Positions 7,422 to 34,485 of a stretch of 43,203 nucleotides of DNA are shown piece after piece. This DNA comes from a virus. Each line of letters begins with the position of its first letter. Positions within the stretch are counted from its first letter, which is position 1. The notes below the pieces were generated by a model. The model did not search any database. It was not told the origin of the DNA and saw only the letters and a program-made list of their open reading frames with translations. The position numbers were made by a program, and so were the translations under genes. The DNA lies in IMG/VR virus record IMGVR_UViG_3300028864_000041, positions 1 through 43,203 of that record. The stretch is one strand, 5' to 3'.

Positions 7422-7541
7422 ATGGTTAAAATTACAAAAGAAATTCATGCAAAGCTAAAACTTATGAAAGAAAAGTTAAATATGCCTATGTCGCAATGTA
7501 TTAATATGCTTGTTACCCAGTGGTTAAAGGATAATAAATGA
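7422..7541 (+). CDS. Small ribbon-helix-helix-like protein (39 aa)
   Basis: The protein reads MVKITKEIHAKLKLMKEKL, then NMPMSQCINMLVTQWLK: a short strand and two helices as in minimal CopG/Arc-type DNA-binding proteins. AAAAAGGAG lies upstream; GTG 7419 directly before the ATG is an alternative start. The stop overlaps the start of the AP2/HNH gene (ATGA), which suggests coupled translation. Confidence 0.5.
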   Translation: MVKITKEIHAKLKLMKEKLNMPMSQCINMLVTQWLKDNK

Positions 7542-8047
7542 TATATAGAAAAAGTAAACATAATATGACTGGGACTAATATATATAGAGTTTGGGGAAAT
7601 ATAAAAACTAGATGTTTTAATAAAAACAATATTAATTATAAAAACTATGGTAGTCGTGGAATTACTATTTGTGACGAATGGCGTAATGATTTTATGTCTT
7701 TTTATAATTGGGCTATTACTAATGGTTATAACAATAACTTATCTATTGATAGAATAAACAATGACGGAAATTATGAGCCTAATAATTGTAGGTGGGCTAA
7801 TAAAAATACACAATTGCAAAATACAAGAAAAATAAGAATAAATAATACAAGTGGGTATAGAGGTGCTTCTTTTGATAAAAATAAAAAGAAATTTACATCA
7901 AGAATAATGGTAAACTCAAAAAGTATAAAATTAGGTTCTTTTAATACTTTAATTGAAGCAGGATACGCATATGATAAATATGTTATAGATAACAATCTAA
8001 AACATACAACAAATGGTTTATGTGTTAAGCATTTAATGAGTGTTTAG
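7538..8047 (+). CDS. AP2/HNH-like homing endonuclease (copy 1, without N-terminal zinc ribbon)
   Basis: Two domains are visible in the 169-aa product. First comes the HNH-like module YGSRGITICDEW...SIDRINNDGNYEPNNCRW; then a C-terminal AP2 DNA-binding domain with NTSGYRGASFD and GSFNTLIEAGYAYDKYVIDN. Proteins of this kind are mobile endonucleases of phages. It is clearly related to the genes at 9932 and 33841 but lacks the roughly 45-residue N-terminal cysteine region (CxxC...CxxC) that they carry. Its start overlaps the preceding RHH gene, so either it arrived truncated or its N-terminus was lost. Confidence 0.82.
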   Translation: MIYRKSKHNMTGTNIYRVWGNIKTRCFNKNNINYKNYGSRGITICDEWRNDFMSFYNWAITNGYNNNLSIDRINNDGNYEPNNCRWANKNTQLQNTRKIRINNTSGYRGASFDKNKKKFTSRIMVNSKSIKLGSFNTLIEAGYAYDKYVIDNNLKHTTNGLCVKHLMSV

Positions 8048-8071: not shown

Positions 8072-8326
8072 ATGAAAGCAAGTTTTAATGGGATGAGAAA
8101 AAATGCAACCGCAAATATGAATAAGTTGCATTCAGTTTTAAAAGAAGTATTAAGTGATATGGATAATGATTCCTTAGAAAATGAAATCATTGAAGCATTC
8201 AACAATTCAGCCCAAAGCGTTGATGTGATGAATTGTCTTTATGACCCAAATGTTAAAGATGATATGGACGATTTATCTGATTTTATTAGCGTTAATAGGC
8301 TTATTTTCTCAGATGAAAAAGAATAA
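8072..8326 (+). CDS. Hypothetical protein (84 aa)
   Basis: AAAGGGGTTAAAG precedes the ATG. The protein is largely helical and acidic in its second half (NVKDDMDDLSDF). N-terminal MRKNATANMNKL is a pattern I associate with a small phage early protein of unknown role. It is part of the short accessory gene string. Confidence 0.6.
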   Translation: MKASFNGMRKNATANMNKLHSVLKEVLSDMDNDSLENEIIEAFNNSAQSVDVMNCLYDPNVKDDMDDLSDFISVNRLIFSDEKE

Positions 8327-8329
8327 ATA

Positions 8330-8566
8330 ATGTATGACACACAAAGAGAATACGACACAGACAAAGCAATTACAGAAATGTTTGCAAAGCCACCAACTTT
8401 TTTAGAAAAATGTTTAACGTGCAAATTATATGCGGGGTGCGATAAAGACGTAGGCGATCAGCTATGCGGTGCGGATAAAGACAACATTGTAACGTGTTTG
8501 TCCGTTGATATTGAAATGCAAATCGCAGAACTTGGCGGTTGCGTAATGTTTGAGGAGATGAGATGA
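8330..8566 (+). CDS. Cysteine-rich hypothetical protein (78 aa)
   Basis: Six cysteines occur in CLTCKLYAGCDKDVGDQLCG, TCLSV and GGCVMF, which could bind a metal. No known fold is recognised. It starts 3 nt after the previous stop and overlaps the next start by 4 nt, so it belongs to a tightly packed operon. Confidence 0.6.
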   Translation: MYDTQREYDTDKAITEMFAKPPTFLEKCLTCKLYAGCDKDVGDQLCGADKDNIVTCLSVDIEMQIAELGGCVMFEEMR

Positions 8567-9906: not shown

Positions 9907-9931
9907 AAATATTTATGGGGCGGTGCAAAAT

Positions 9932-10582
9932 ATGACATTATTAAAAGATTTGGGTACAAAAAAAATAAATGATAGATTTATAAGGTTTGGGCTGTACAAA
10001 TGCCCTATATGTAAAAATGATTTTGAAACAAGAGTACAAAGCGTAAAAACTGGGGATACAACAAAATGCAAAAGTTGTTCAACCAAAATAAAATTAACTA
10101 CTCATGGGTTAACAAATAACAAAATTTATCAAGCATGGTATAACATAAAAAAAAGATGTTATGACGAAAAACATAAAAATTTTAATAGATATGGGGCTAT
10201 TGGAATAAATATGTGTGATGAATGGCTAACTAATCCTAAAAAATTTATAGAATGGTCTTTAAAAAATGGGTACAAAATTGGGCTTGAAATTGATAGAATT
10301 AATCCAATGGGGGGCTATAAACCTAATAACTGTCGTTGGGCTACTAGAACATTACAAGCAAGAAATACAAGAATGACAGATAGAAACACATCTGGGTTTA
10401 GAGGGGTTTCTTTTTCAAAAGCTTGTAATTTATGGACTGTTCAGATAGGGGTAAATAAAAAAAGAATTCATCTTGGTTATTTTAAAAATGCTATAGATGG
10501 AGCGTTAGCTTACGATAAATATGTTATTGATAACAATTTAGAACATAGTACTAACAAAAAGCTAGGAAATATTAATTTTTAA
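9932..10582 (+). CDS. AP2/HNH-like homing endonuclease (copy 2)
   Basis: The 216-aa product begins with a zinc ribbon (CPIC...CKSC). The HNH-like module (YGAIGINMCDEW...EIDRINPMGGYKPNNCRW) follows, and then the AP2 domain (NTSGFRGVSFSK...HLGYFKNAIDGALAYDKYVIDN). It is a close relative of the genes at 7538 and 33841. ATG 9932 is preferred over the GTG at 9923; GGGGCGGTG is the likely ribosome-binding site. The gene lies between a tiny ORF and the dUTPase gene. Confidence 0.85.
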   Translation: MTLLKDLGTKKINDRFIRFGLYKCPICKNDFETRVQSVKTGDTTKCKSCSTKIKLTTHGLTNNKIYQAWYNIKKRCYDEKHKNFNRYGAIGINMCDEWLTNPKKFIEWSLKNGYKIGLEIDRINPMGGYKPNNCRWATRTLQARNTRMTDRNTSGFRGVSFSKACNLWTVQIGVNKKRIHLGYFKNAIDGALAYDKYVIDNNLEHSTNKKLGNINF

Positions 10583-22055: not shown

Positions 22056-22799
22056 TTAAAGAAGTTTACCTAAACTATTTGCAAACTCAATAGGGTCTTT
22101 TGAGCTTTTTAACTGATTGCACTTACTACAACTCATTACTAAATTACTTAATGTATGTTTTCCACGTTTAGATAATGGTATATAATGGTCTAAATGTTTT
22201 TTAACATTTTTTAAATTACACCCACACCAATAGCAAACTTTAGTGTTTTGTTGTAATTCCATTAGTTGTGCAGTGGTAACATCTCCTTTTTTTTCTATAG
22301 CTCTACGTTTGTGCCTTGTATTCTTTTTTATCATTTTTCCAATAAACGTATGATTGTATTCTTTTTGTTTTGCGTATAGTGCATCATAATTTTTTTGATG
22401 ATATTTTTTATGAGCAAGAGATATTTTCTCTTTATTCAGTTGGTAATATTCTTTTCTTCGCAGAGATATTTTTTCTTTATTGTTTTTGTCGTATTCTTTT
22501 TTTTGTAAAGATATTTTTTCTTTGTTTTGTTCATAATATTTTTTTTGTTTTAATGATAGTTTTTCTATATTTTTGTTTCTATATTTTTTATCTCTAATCG
22601 CTATTATTTCTTTATTATTTTTCCTATATTCACTATTGGCAATTTGTAGCATTTCTTTATTTTCTAATTGCCATATTTTACAGCAATCTTTGCACCATGC
22701 GACAACCCCATGTTTTCCTAATTTTGCTTTATGAAAAAAAGATATTTCTTTTTCTTCCCCACATTTTGTGCATATTTTTGTTTGTATTATTTTGTTCAT
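22056..22799 (-). CDS. HNH homing endonuclease with charged repeats
   Basis: The 247-aa protein starts with a zinc ribbon (CTKCGEEKEISFF...CKDCCK). About six repeats of 16-17 residues follow, built around NKEKISL(R/Q)KKEYY. It ends with a classical HNH module: CYWCG, HLDHYIPLSKRGKHTLSNLVMSC and SKCNQLK. H-DH and N are the expected catalytic positions. It lies between the tail chaperone and tape measure genes and is probably an inserted mobile gene. A hairpin directly upstream covers its ribosome-binding site. Confidence 0.88.
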   Translation of the reverse strand: MNKIIQTKICTKCGEEKEISFFHKAKLGKHGVVAWCKDCCKIWQLENKEMLQIANSEYRKNNKEIIAIRDKKYRNKNIEKLSLKQKKYYEQNKEKISLQKKEYDKNNKEKISLRRKEYYQLNKEKISLAHKKYHQKNYDALYAKQKEYNHTFIGKMIKKNTRHKRRAIEKKGDVTTAQLMELQQNTKVCYWCGCNLKNVKKHLDHYIPLSKRGKHTLSNLVMSCSKCNQLKSSKDPIEFANSLGKLL

Positions 22800-22808
22800 A
22801 TTGAGCTT

Positions 22809-22849
22809 CCTAGGGCTAAAATTTTAAAAAGATGATTAGAAGCCCTAGG
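22809..22849 (-). promoter_or_regulatory. RBS-sequestering hairpin before the HNH gene
   Basis: On the leftward strand, CCTAGGGCT (22849-22841) pairs perfectly with AGCCCTAGG (22817-22809). The second arm contains the AGGA-type ribosome-binding site, 8-9 nt before the start codon at 22799. Folding would block translation from long late transcripts. Confidence 0.65.
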
Positions 22850-22911
22850 ATAGACCCAATCACCTATTTAAACTTTTGTATTATTATAATACAAAAAGGT
22901 CAAAAAGAAAA

Positions 22912-23456
22912 TTAATTCTTTCTTTTTGACCTTTGAATAGCTTTATACTCATTATATTTTGTTATTGCGGTAATCTCCCACATTAAAAAAGCATCTTCTA
23001 ACGTGTAAATGGTTCTTAACTCGTTTAGCGTCGCTTGTTTGGCTTCGATAATGCTTCCAATAAACGGGTCAATATTGATTGTGCTACGGACGGGATTTTC
23101 TCCATTAATCGAGTTAAGGAACTGGAGACTATCCCGTTTTGAAAAAAACTGAAATTGTACTCAATGATCTCTTTCATTAATTTAATTGCTGTTTCAGCGT
23201 CGTTAGTGTGATTGTCGATAAGTGCTTTAGTACTTAAGACAATTTCACCTAGTTCTGTTTTGACTGCGATAAATTTAAAAATGTCATCTCGTACCGCTTT
23301 GAGAGTTTCAAAATCTCCGATCTTTGGCATTGCGCTCATTGGCAGTTTAACTAATATTTCCATACCGTCCGTTGCAGGAAAACGAGAGATTAAAAATAAT
23401 CTTTCTACCCCGTCAAGGTCGATTATTGTAATTTCTTTTGGTTTAAGGAGTGCCAT
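22912..23456 (-). CDS. Tail assembly chaperone, -1 frameshift fusion product (about 181 aa)
   Basis: From ATG 23456 translation follows the short chaperone for 105 residues to FSFF. At the T TTT TTT heptamer (23148-23142) it slips back by one base and continues SKRDSLQFLNSINGENPV and on to TAA at 22914-22912, with 76 extra residues. The extension contains LNELRTIYTLEDAFLMWEI, typical of the second tail chaperone half. That frame has a TGA just upstream of the slip site and no start codon, so it is reachable only by frameshifting or if the T-run is mis-sequenced. This is the G/GT arrangement known from phages such as lambda. Confidence 0.75.
23025..23456 (-). CDS. Tail assembly chaperone, short product (143 aa)
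   Basis: ATG 23456 overlaps the stop of the upstream gene (TAATG), and GAGGAACAAG lies in front. An in-frame start at 23492 would only extend into that gene. Segments such as LISRFPATDGMEILVKLP, MPKIGDF, STKALIDNH and LMKEIIEYNFSFFQNG match chaperones between tube and tape measure genes of contractile tails. The protein would coat the tape measure during tail assembly. Confidence 0.75.
   Translation of the reverse strand: MALLKPKEITIIDLDGVERLFLISRFPATDGMEILVKLPMSAMPKIGDFETLKAVRDDIFKFIAVKTELGEIVLSTKALIDNHTNDAETAIKLMKEIIEYNFSFFQNGIVSSSLTRLMEKIPSVAQSILTRLLEALSKPNKRR
23091..23148 (-). promoter_or_regulatory. Programmed -1 ribosomal frameshift signal
   Basis: Three parts lie in the canonical order on the leftward strand. 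T TTT TTT (23148-23142) is in zero frame after AG. A 5-nt spacer CAAAA follows. The stem-loop consists of CGGGAT (23136-23131) with ATCCCG (23096-23091) and CTCCA (23127-23123) with TGGAG (23104-23100), separated by a symmetric 3-nt internal loop and closed by an 18-nt loop. Confidence 0.85.
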
Positions 23457-33703: not shown

Positions 33704-33746
33704 GGGCTTCATTATTAAAAACTAATCACTGGGCGCATAATTATGC

Positions 33747-33752
33747 TATAAT
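33747..33752 (+). promoter_or_regulatory. Possible -10 element before the AP2/HNH leader
   Basis: TATAATTAC, the -10 and downstream bases shared with the two strong promoters of this genome, lies 89 bp before the endonuclease start. The -35 region is poor (AATCAC), so it is weaker or needs an activator. Confidence 0.45.
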
Positions 33753-33776
33753 TACAATGTAAAAAGTTTTTGCGAG

Positions 33777-33838
33777 AGGTTGTTACAAGCCTCCTCAGCT
33801 ACAACCTTTCACAAAAATTTATAAGTCTGAGGAGGCTT
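33777..33838 (+). promoter_or_regulatory. Two mutually exclusive RNA hairpins that control an endonuclease RBS
   Basis: AAGCCTCCTCAG (33787-33798) pairs perfectly with CTGAGGAGGCTT (33827-33838), which holds the strong GAGGAGG ribosome-binding site 5 nt before ATG 33841. AGGTTGT (33777-33783) pairs with ACAACCT (33801-33807), which would enclose the anti-RBS strand in its loop. The two folds compete or form a pseudoknot, a switch-like layout. Confidence 0.75.
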
Positions 33839-33840
33839 AA

Positions 33841-34485
33841 ATGAAAATAATTAAAATTATAGGTGCTAGAAAAGTAGGGACAAAAAACGCAACATTAACT
33901 TTTGTTCTCGTGGAGTGCGAGTGTTGCCATATTTTATTTGAAAGACCGTTATCTGTAATTAATAAAAATCCATATGCAAAATGTAGAAAATGCTCAAAAA
34001 TAAATCATGGAGATAGTAAGCACAATAAAATTTATTCCGCTTGGATAAATATGAAAACTCGCATATATAATAAAAAATATGTACTGTTTGAATCATACGG
34101 GGGTAGAGGAATTACCATATGTGATGAATGGGTAAATAGTTATGTTAATTTTAAAAAATGGTCTATTAATAACGGGTTTGATGTAAATTTAACACTTGAT
34201 AGAATTAATGTAAATGAAAATTACGAACCCAATAATTGCAGATGGACTACAAATGCTATCCAAGCTAGAAATACTAGGTTATTGTGTAAAGTGAACACTA
34301 GTGGATATAGAGGTGTTAGATTTAGAAAAGATAATAAAAAATGGCAAGCTAGAATAATGGTAAATTATAAATCAATTAGCATAGGTCATTTTAAATCAGA
34401 TATTGAAGCCGCCAAAGCTTATGACAAATACGTTATTGACAATGAATTAGAGCACCCTATAAATTTTCCTAATCAAATTCTATAA
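33841..34485 (+). CDS. AP2/HNH-like homing endonuclease (copy 3)
   Basis: The 214-aa protein has a zinc ribbon (CECCHILF...CRKCSK). The HNH-like module (YGGRGITICDEW...TLDRINVNENYEPNNCRW) follows, and an AP2 domain (NTSGYRGVRFRK...GHFKSDIEAAKAYDKYVIDN) closes it. It ends the opposite-strand cassette and overlaps the 3' end of the converging Mu F-like head gene by 17 nt. Translation is probably limited by the upstream hairpin. Confidence 0.87.
   Translation: MKIIKIIGARKVGTKNATLTFVLVECECCHILFERPLSVINKNPYAKCRKCSKINHGDSKHNKIYSAWINMKTRIYNKKYVLFESYGGRGITICDEWVNSYVNFKKWSINNGFDVNLTLDRINVNENYEPNNCRWTTNAIQARNTRLLCKVNTSGYRGVRFRKDNKKWQARIMVNYKSISIGHFKSDIEAAKAYDKYVIDNELEHPINFPNQIL

Follow-up and report, generated by a model that had tools for sequence, protein, structure and literature searches.

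Upstream of an AP2/HNH endonuclease gene in a viral genome lies a leader in which the strand complementary to the gene's Shine-Dalgarno sequence (SD) is held in the loop of a second hairpin, an arrangement that is conserved, carries compensatory changes and recurs in front of other endonuclease genes. The gene lies in a stretch of 43,203 nt (IMG/VR record IMGVR_UViG_3300028864_000041, positions 1 to 43,203), referred to here as the window. Our preferred reading of these data, which we regard as probable on balance, is that the leader would repress translation in cis and adopt either of two competing folds, serving a homing-type endonuclease under its own promoter. The parts of this reading differ in firmness. 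Judged from its sequence, we hold with good confidence that the leader is an RNA that represses the SD, and we consider the case for genuine two-state behaviour to be evenly poised.

Architecture of the leader

The SD GAGGAGG is separated from the ATG at 33841 by a 5-nt spacer (CTTAA) and falls within one arm of a perfect 12-bp inverted repeat, AAGCCTCCTCAG/CTGAGGAGGCTT, whose arms are exact complements placed 28 nt apart (Table 1). We refer to the helix that this repeat would form as S2. An earlier note on this DNA had described both the repeat and the position of the SD, and both descriptions proved correct. It had also pointed to a second stem, AGGTTGT (33777-33783) with ACAACCT (33801-33807), which is real but represents only the apical part of P1, a 19-bp hairpin with one mismatch whose loop carries the anti-SD strand. 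The 5' arm of P1 can be divided into an outer A/U-rich half (33764-33772) and an inner half (33774-33783). The element TGCTATAAT, which matches the consensus of an extended -10, is found 11 nt upstream of P1, and the predicted transcript would begin about 4 nt before the hairpin.

When the SD arm was kept fixed and the upstream leader was dinucleotide-shuffled, a 12-bp partner for the SD arose in 0 of 2000 trials, the longest SD-covering repeat being 10, and a 141-nt fold around the leader gave a z of -3.2. Among the 56 window genes tabulated, no other had an SD-covering repeat of more than 5 bp, but this table used narrow SD definitions and a later scan revealed a second such leader at 22797-22888. 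The degree to which the SD is hidden differs between folds. In the nested fold the SD is split, with GAGG in the loop of a local hairpin (P2), AGG in its stem and the AUG free, and the opening cost of the SD ranks 10th of the 56 genes. On these models strong burial of the SD needs the long-range helix S2, nested folding alone predicting ordinary accessibility. The claim that the ribosome-binding site is buried would consequently hold by way of S2 but not in the plain nested fold, where the SD is just half buried.

Only 6 nt link the end of P1 (33820) to the start of the S2 arm (33827), and the corresponding linker is 0-8 nt long in all of the leaders analysed. Since 6 nt cannot span some 19 bp, about 50 angstrom, the complete forms of P1 and S2 should be mutually exclusive; for molecules in solution this is a geometric expectation from linker length, under which only the upper part of P1 could coexist with S2. 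Since only 0-8 nt separate P1 from the SD arm and the two complete helices would exclude each other, two competing RNA states are to be expected. The competing or pseudoknotted fold that had been proposed is therefore supported, in the form of an anti-SD strand displayed in the P1 loop and a choice between P1 and S2. The GAGG of the P2 loop is, in addition, complementary to CCUC of the P1 loop in the register of S2.

Table 1. Positions of the elements of the two leaders in the window and of the genes that follow them
Feature	Positions	Strand	Basis or remarks
Putative extended -10 promoter element TGCTATAAT	33744..33752	+	Sequence; start predicted at about 33759-33761
P1 5' arm	33764..33783	+	MFE fold; compensatory changes in homologues
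Anti-SD strand (S2 5' arm), inside P1 loop	33787..33798	+	Perfect complement of 33827-33838
P1 3' arm	33801..33820	+	MFE fold; compensatory changes in homologues
P2, local SD hairpin UAAGUCU-GAGG-AGGCUUA	33822..33839	+	MFE, -6.6 kcal/mol
S2 3' arm, with SD GAGGAGG at 33829-33835	33827..33838	+	Sequence, repeat search, folding
AP2/HNH endonuclease gene, 214 aa	33841..34485	+	Pfam AP2 4e-9; PHROG 374 HNH endonuclease 1.2e-49
Second leader: terminator-like perfect 16-bp inverted repeat, then TTTTTG	22895..22934	-	Repeat search; upstream of the leader
Second leader: TATAAT, -10-like element	22883..22888	-	Sequence
Second leader: P1, 21 bp, arms 22855-22877 and 22818-22840	22818..22877	-	Descriptor scan
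Second leader: S2, TCCTAGGGCT (22841-22850) with AGCCCTAGGA (22808-22817)	22808..22850	-	Covers SD AGGAAG
HNH endonuclease gene, 247 aa, PF01844/HNH_5, without AP2	22056..22799	-	Pfam HNH 5.9e-9; PHROG 1035 3.4e-23

Conservation and recurrence before endonuclease genes

Two contigs (L004 and L005) are identical to the main leader region. In L006 the endonuclease is 93% identical and the region upstream has diverged by roughly a quarter or more, while the leader shows no difference across 99 nt (33742-33840); with the gene differing at 7%, the probability of zero changes in 99 bases is about 8e-4. A pattern search on the 10-bp repeat returned L074, L122, L267, L268 and L269, which carry the same leader before AP2/HNH endonucleases of 39-47% protein identity. 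Between groups the leaders are 74-83% identical, compared with 49-54% for the coding sequences (main gene against the others). Compensatory changes in homologues, a test set in advance by the earlier note, were found: four P1 pairs are altered on both sides, in 4 distinct rows. P1 cells are paired in 95% of cases, compared with 39-53% when the partner is slid by 1-3 columns, and 3 of 500 shuffles scored as high. Two of the double changes (columns 24/74 and 27/71) fall in the outer half of P1, and G-U pairs are retained at columns 23/75, 28/70 and 33/65. The S2 core GCCTCCTCAG is invariant in close homologues, such that its support within this group is one of conservation, with no variation there. 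Since outer P1 could not coexist with S2 in cis and yet has undergone double changes, both states look to be selected. Both of two mutually exclusive helices may be maintained by selection, the observations that bear on this being covariation of outer P1, the retention of S2 with different letters across families and the exclusion expected from the 0-8 nt linker. L006, L122 and the L267 group have the TGCTATAAT element at the equivalent position. Two close protein relatives, L297 and L306, lack the clear leader motif. On the reverse strand of L018 (about 420-770) there is a decayed endonuclease cassette in which the leader and the 5' part of the gene are missing, the remnant being fused to the reading frame upstream, close to a short stretch of similarity (GATARAAT).

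The same architecture recurs within the window on the minus strand, before a different HNH nuclease (z -5.9 to -7.0 across separate descriptor runs). The S2 letters of this second leader, UCCUAGGGCU/AGCCCUAGGA, are unlike those of the main leader and are still complementary. The descriptor used looks for a helix of 7 bp or more that covers the SD and has its 5' arm within an enclosing hairpin, and is scored against shuffles. It was applied to 384 loci totalling 2.76 Mb, where the cut-off of z<=-3 left seven distinct leaders, all with z<=-4.4 and all seven before endonuclease genes, a proportion that overstates specificity because the loci were largely fetched through endonucleases. Cleaner evidence for the link comes from the second window leader, L120 and L301. 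The last of these was fetched by protein similarity alone, and the other two were not fetched as relatives of the main endonuclease; L120 was recovered through an SD/anti-SD DNA pattern, and only its hairpin and gene count as independent evidence. An SD-arm helix was found for 9 of 130 AP2/HNH genes versus 5 of 848 other ORFs (Fisher 1e-5, with related sequences included in the counts). One weaker match, L393 (z -3.1), precedes a non-endonuclease gene; at 8230-8383 (+) it has an SD-complementary loop before a short-protein gene with a linker of 20 nt, and may be a further candidate or chance. For the two further AP2/HNH genes of the window (7538-8047 and 9923-10582), the descriptor scan gave no such leader; both overlap or directly follow upstream reading frames.

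L301 presents the full layout, with TATAAT, a 20-bp P1, the loop CCCCCGUC facing the SD GACGGGGG, and P2 as UAAGAC-GGGG-GUCUUA. In L120 S2 is built from letters of its own (CCUCCUCAGGU/ACCUGAGGAGG, again complementary), the P2 equivalent is UACCU-GAGG-AGGUA, and the gene encodes a DUF723-like endonuclease (PHROG 681, 5e-72), the DUF723 assignment being weak in Pfam (E 0.07, first 60 residues). In all leaders S2 is perfectly complementary and P1 is nearly perfect, at 18-21 bp; the S2 letters differ in L301, L120 and the second window leader, and the arms have no sequence in common across families. By nested energy, the two states are no more than 1 kcal/mol apart in L267 and L120; in L074 and the second window leader the best nested structure is the one with S2, and in W1, L122 and L301 P1 is clearly favoured, so that the energy balance is not uniform across leaders. 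Pseudoknot energies are estimates only. A covariance model built from the close group alone placed L120 (25.8 bits), L301 (23.8 bits) and the second window leader (22.1 bits) as its next matches over the whole leader, but its specificity is only moderate, as the hairpin read in antisense reaches 21-24 bits, and the model is therefore supporting evidence only.

Run on eight regions of cultured phages (144 kb), the descriptor gave no match, and a search of 395+398 (793) bacterial genomes with the RNA model, a weak test, was likewise negative; the element accordingly appears to be rare or restricted. A blastn search of the leader against cultured phages and plasmids returned chance pieces only, and a relaxed S2 pattern search gave no further families. 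Other matches to the loop-stem pattern in viral contigs had no SD partner and were mostly repeats of a few sequences, and Rfam gave no gathering-level match in the window, sub-threshold matches being at chance level. Among rejected candidates, L133 (22.5 bits) has a simple SD hairpin of different architecture before another gene, L189, L220 and L340 scored in a relaxed scan with a weak or multi-loop enclosing stem and were left out of the count, and the GC-rich matches of a first descriptor run were lost after shuffling. The leader in L220 (2870-2991) also precedes an endonuclease and has an anti-SD helix of at least 10 bp together with CAGCGGAG, a possible competitor for the anti-SD, making it another possible switch design.

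Mode of action and alternative explanations

A TATAAT-like hexamer lies 0-12 nt before P1 in L301, L120 and the second window leader, and every homologue has a putative -10 element, recognised by sequence only, ahead of its entire leader. Terminator-like hairpins directly precede the promoters of L120 and the second window leader. The cassettes occupy varied sites. The main one is convergent with a MuF-like head gene, those of the second window leader and L122 lie upstream of tape measure genes, that of L268 is upstream of a primase, that of L301 is antisense between tail sheath and virion structural genes, and that of L120 adjoins a terminase gene. Because these insertion sites differ, the leader belongs to the endonuclease cassette and not to its neighbourhood. 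At the main locus the 3' ends of the endonuclease and MuF-like genes overlap on opposite strands (34469-34485), and minus-strand late transcription would cross the endonuclease and its leader antisense. A TTG-started 14-codon frame at 33780 was considered as a leader peptide and set aside, as its SD would abut the start codon.

If transcription begins a few bases upstream of P1, this hairpin would form first and be complete before the SD is synthesised, displaying the anti-SD strand in its loop. The emerging SD would then have two options: local P2, with the SD half open and the AUG free, which might be weakly or transiently translatable, or S2, in which 8-12 bp with the P1 loop would lock it. 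Contact between GAGG of the P2 loop and CCUC of the P1 loop could nucleate the rearrangement to S2. Fresh transcripts would thus pass through a brief translation window before locking, giving a low endonuclease dose even with a good promoter. We consider this specific mode possible but rather doubtful. The MS2 maturation-gene leader is an example of kinetically limited translation of nascent RNA, and the analogy is one of mechanism only, as structure, gene and virus all differ.

The same leader could instead be a static lock that holds endonuclease translation constantly low, with P1 as a scaffold or 5' stabiliser and no switching. Every fold hides part of the SD, and some 4 nt separate the predicted 5' end from P1, a placement shared with 5' stabiliser hairpins. 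A low endonuclease dose is also a known theme in T4 (PMC2988022). Such a lock would need S2 only, however, and outer P1 has been kept by compensatory changes despite excluding S2, which leads us to regard this explanation as unlikely, if far from negligible.

Read-through silencing as described for I-TevI, segB and mobE (PMC2988022) would have long transcripts carrying the 5' arm kept silent and a short active mRNA produced from TATAAG at 33820-33825, and TTTATAAG is indeed conserved in the close group. Against this, TATAAG has no -35, is not enriched as a motif in the window and would place the start inside the SD, and we rejected it as an internal promoter. The -10-like element that precedes the entire leader in each homologue also speaks against it, and the terminator-like hairpins before the L120 and second-leader promoters (the latter at 22895-22934) make read-through silencing unlikely as the main role. 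For the same reasons transcript start, which had been suggested as a trigger in the manner of T4, is not the likeliest one, and we judge this explanation improbable. Activation by RNase III, in which cutting the ~20-bp P1 would remove the anti-SD loop and free the SD, seems to us similarly improbable: phage messages activated by processing are known in general, and in every leader P1 approaches two helical turns with almost perfect pairing, but 18-21 bp with mismatches would be a marginal substrate. Lastly, the repeats might be protein-binding sites in DNA, as I-TevI also represses by binding its own promoter region (PMC2988022) and dyad symmetry can covary in DNA, but the G-U pairs kept in P1, the constant placement of S2 over the SD and the lack of shared arm sequence across families render this very improbable.

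Relation to known leaders and significance

Hairpins that bury the ribosome-binding site are known for T4 I-TevI, I-TevII, I-TevIII and segB and for Aeh1 mobE, where a single hairpin is present in read-through transcripts and lost from late transcripts of a gene-proximal promoter (PMC2988022, PMC3014915). In outcome the leader described here would work like this class, with a phage homing endonuclease whose SD is covered by a leader helix and whose dose is presumably low. It shares with that class a downstream gene of homing type (AP2 4e-9, HNH PHROGs, homing being predicted) and an SD that can pair with a strand upstream of it in a stable helix (12-bp repeat, 0/2000 shuffles). It differs in that a second hairpin competes and displays the anti-SD strand in its loop, and in that -10-like elements precede the leader in place of a promoter yielding a transcript that lacks the 5' arm. 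The proposed analogy with I-TevI is thus apt inasmuch as the leader may bury the endonuclease ribosome-binding site, but does not extend to the promoter, which would lie upstream of the whole leader. A design closer to mobE is seen in L336 (about 1890-2001), where the promoter of an AP2/HNH-type endonuclease reads TTGACA/TACAAT and the hairpin over its SD, CTCCTATACA/TGTATAGGAG, is simple and nested.

In Aeromonas phage 25, seg43(25) has a very stable hairpin with its base immediately upstream of the endonuclease ribosome-binding site (PMC2988022); unlike in the present leader, complementarity between loop and SD is not described there. The T4 gene 32 leader likewise contains a pseudoknot associated with translational control, which lies upstream of the ribosome-binding site and acts by binding gp32 (PMC3014915), whereas here the SD itself would be inside the pseudoknot. 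The open papers searched, which like Rfam are a limited source, do not describe an endonuclease leader in which a hairpin loop competes for the SD in this way.

Taking the evidence further, we tentatively suggest, as one joint proposal whose chances we put at somewhat below even, that this is a portable and previously undescribed two-state switch, carried with its own promoter by free-standing cassettes of at least three nuclease types that sometimes sit behind a terminator, and in which competition between the complete P1 and a loop-SD pseudoknot would time or condition endonuclease synthesis. The control of selfish endonucleases in a way that spares the phage is known mainly from T4-like phages. 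If the proposal is true, a portable promoter-plus-RNA module across unrelated endonuclease families would represent a general solution to this problem, its trigger would be directly testable, and it would offer a handle for spotting active endonuclease cassettes in unknown phages.
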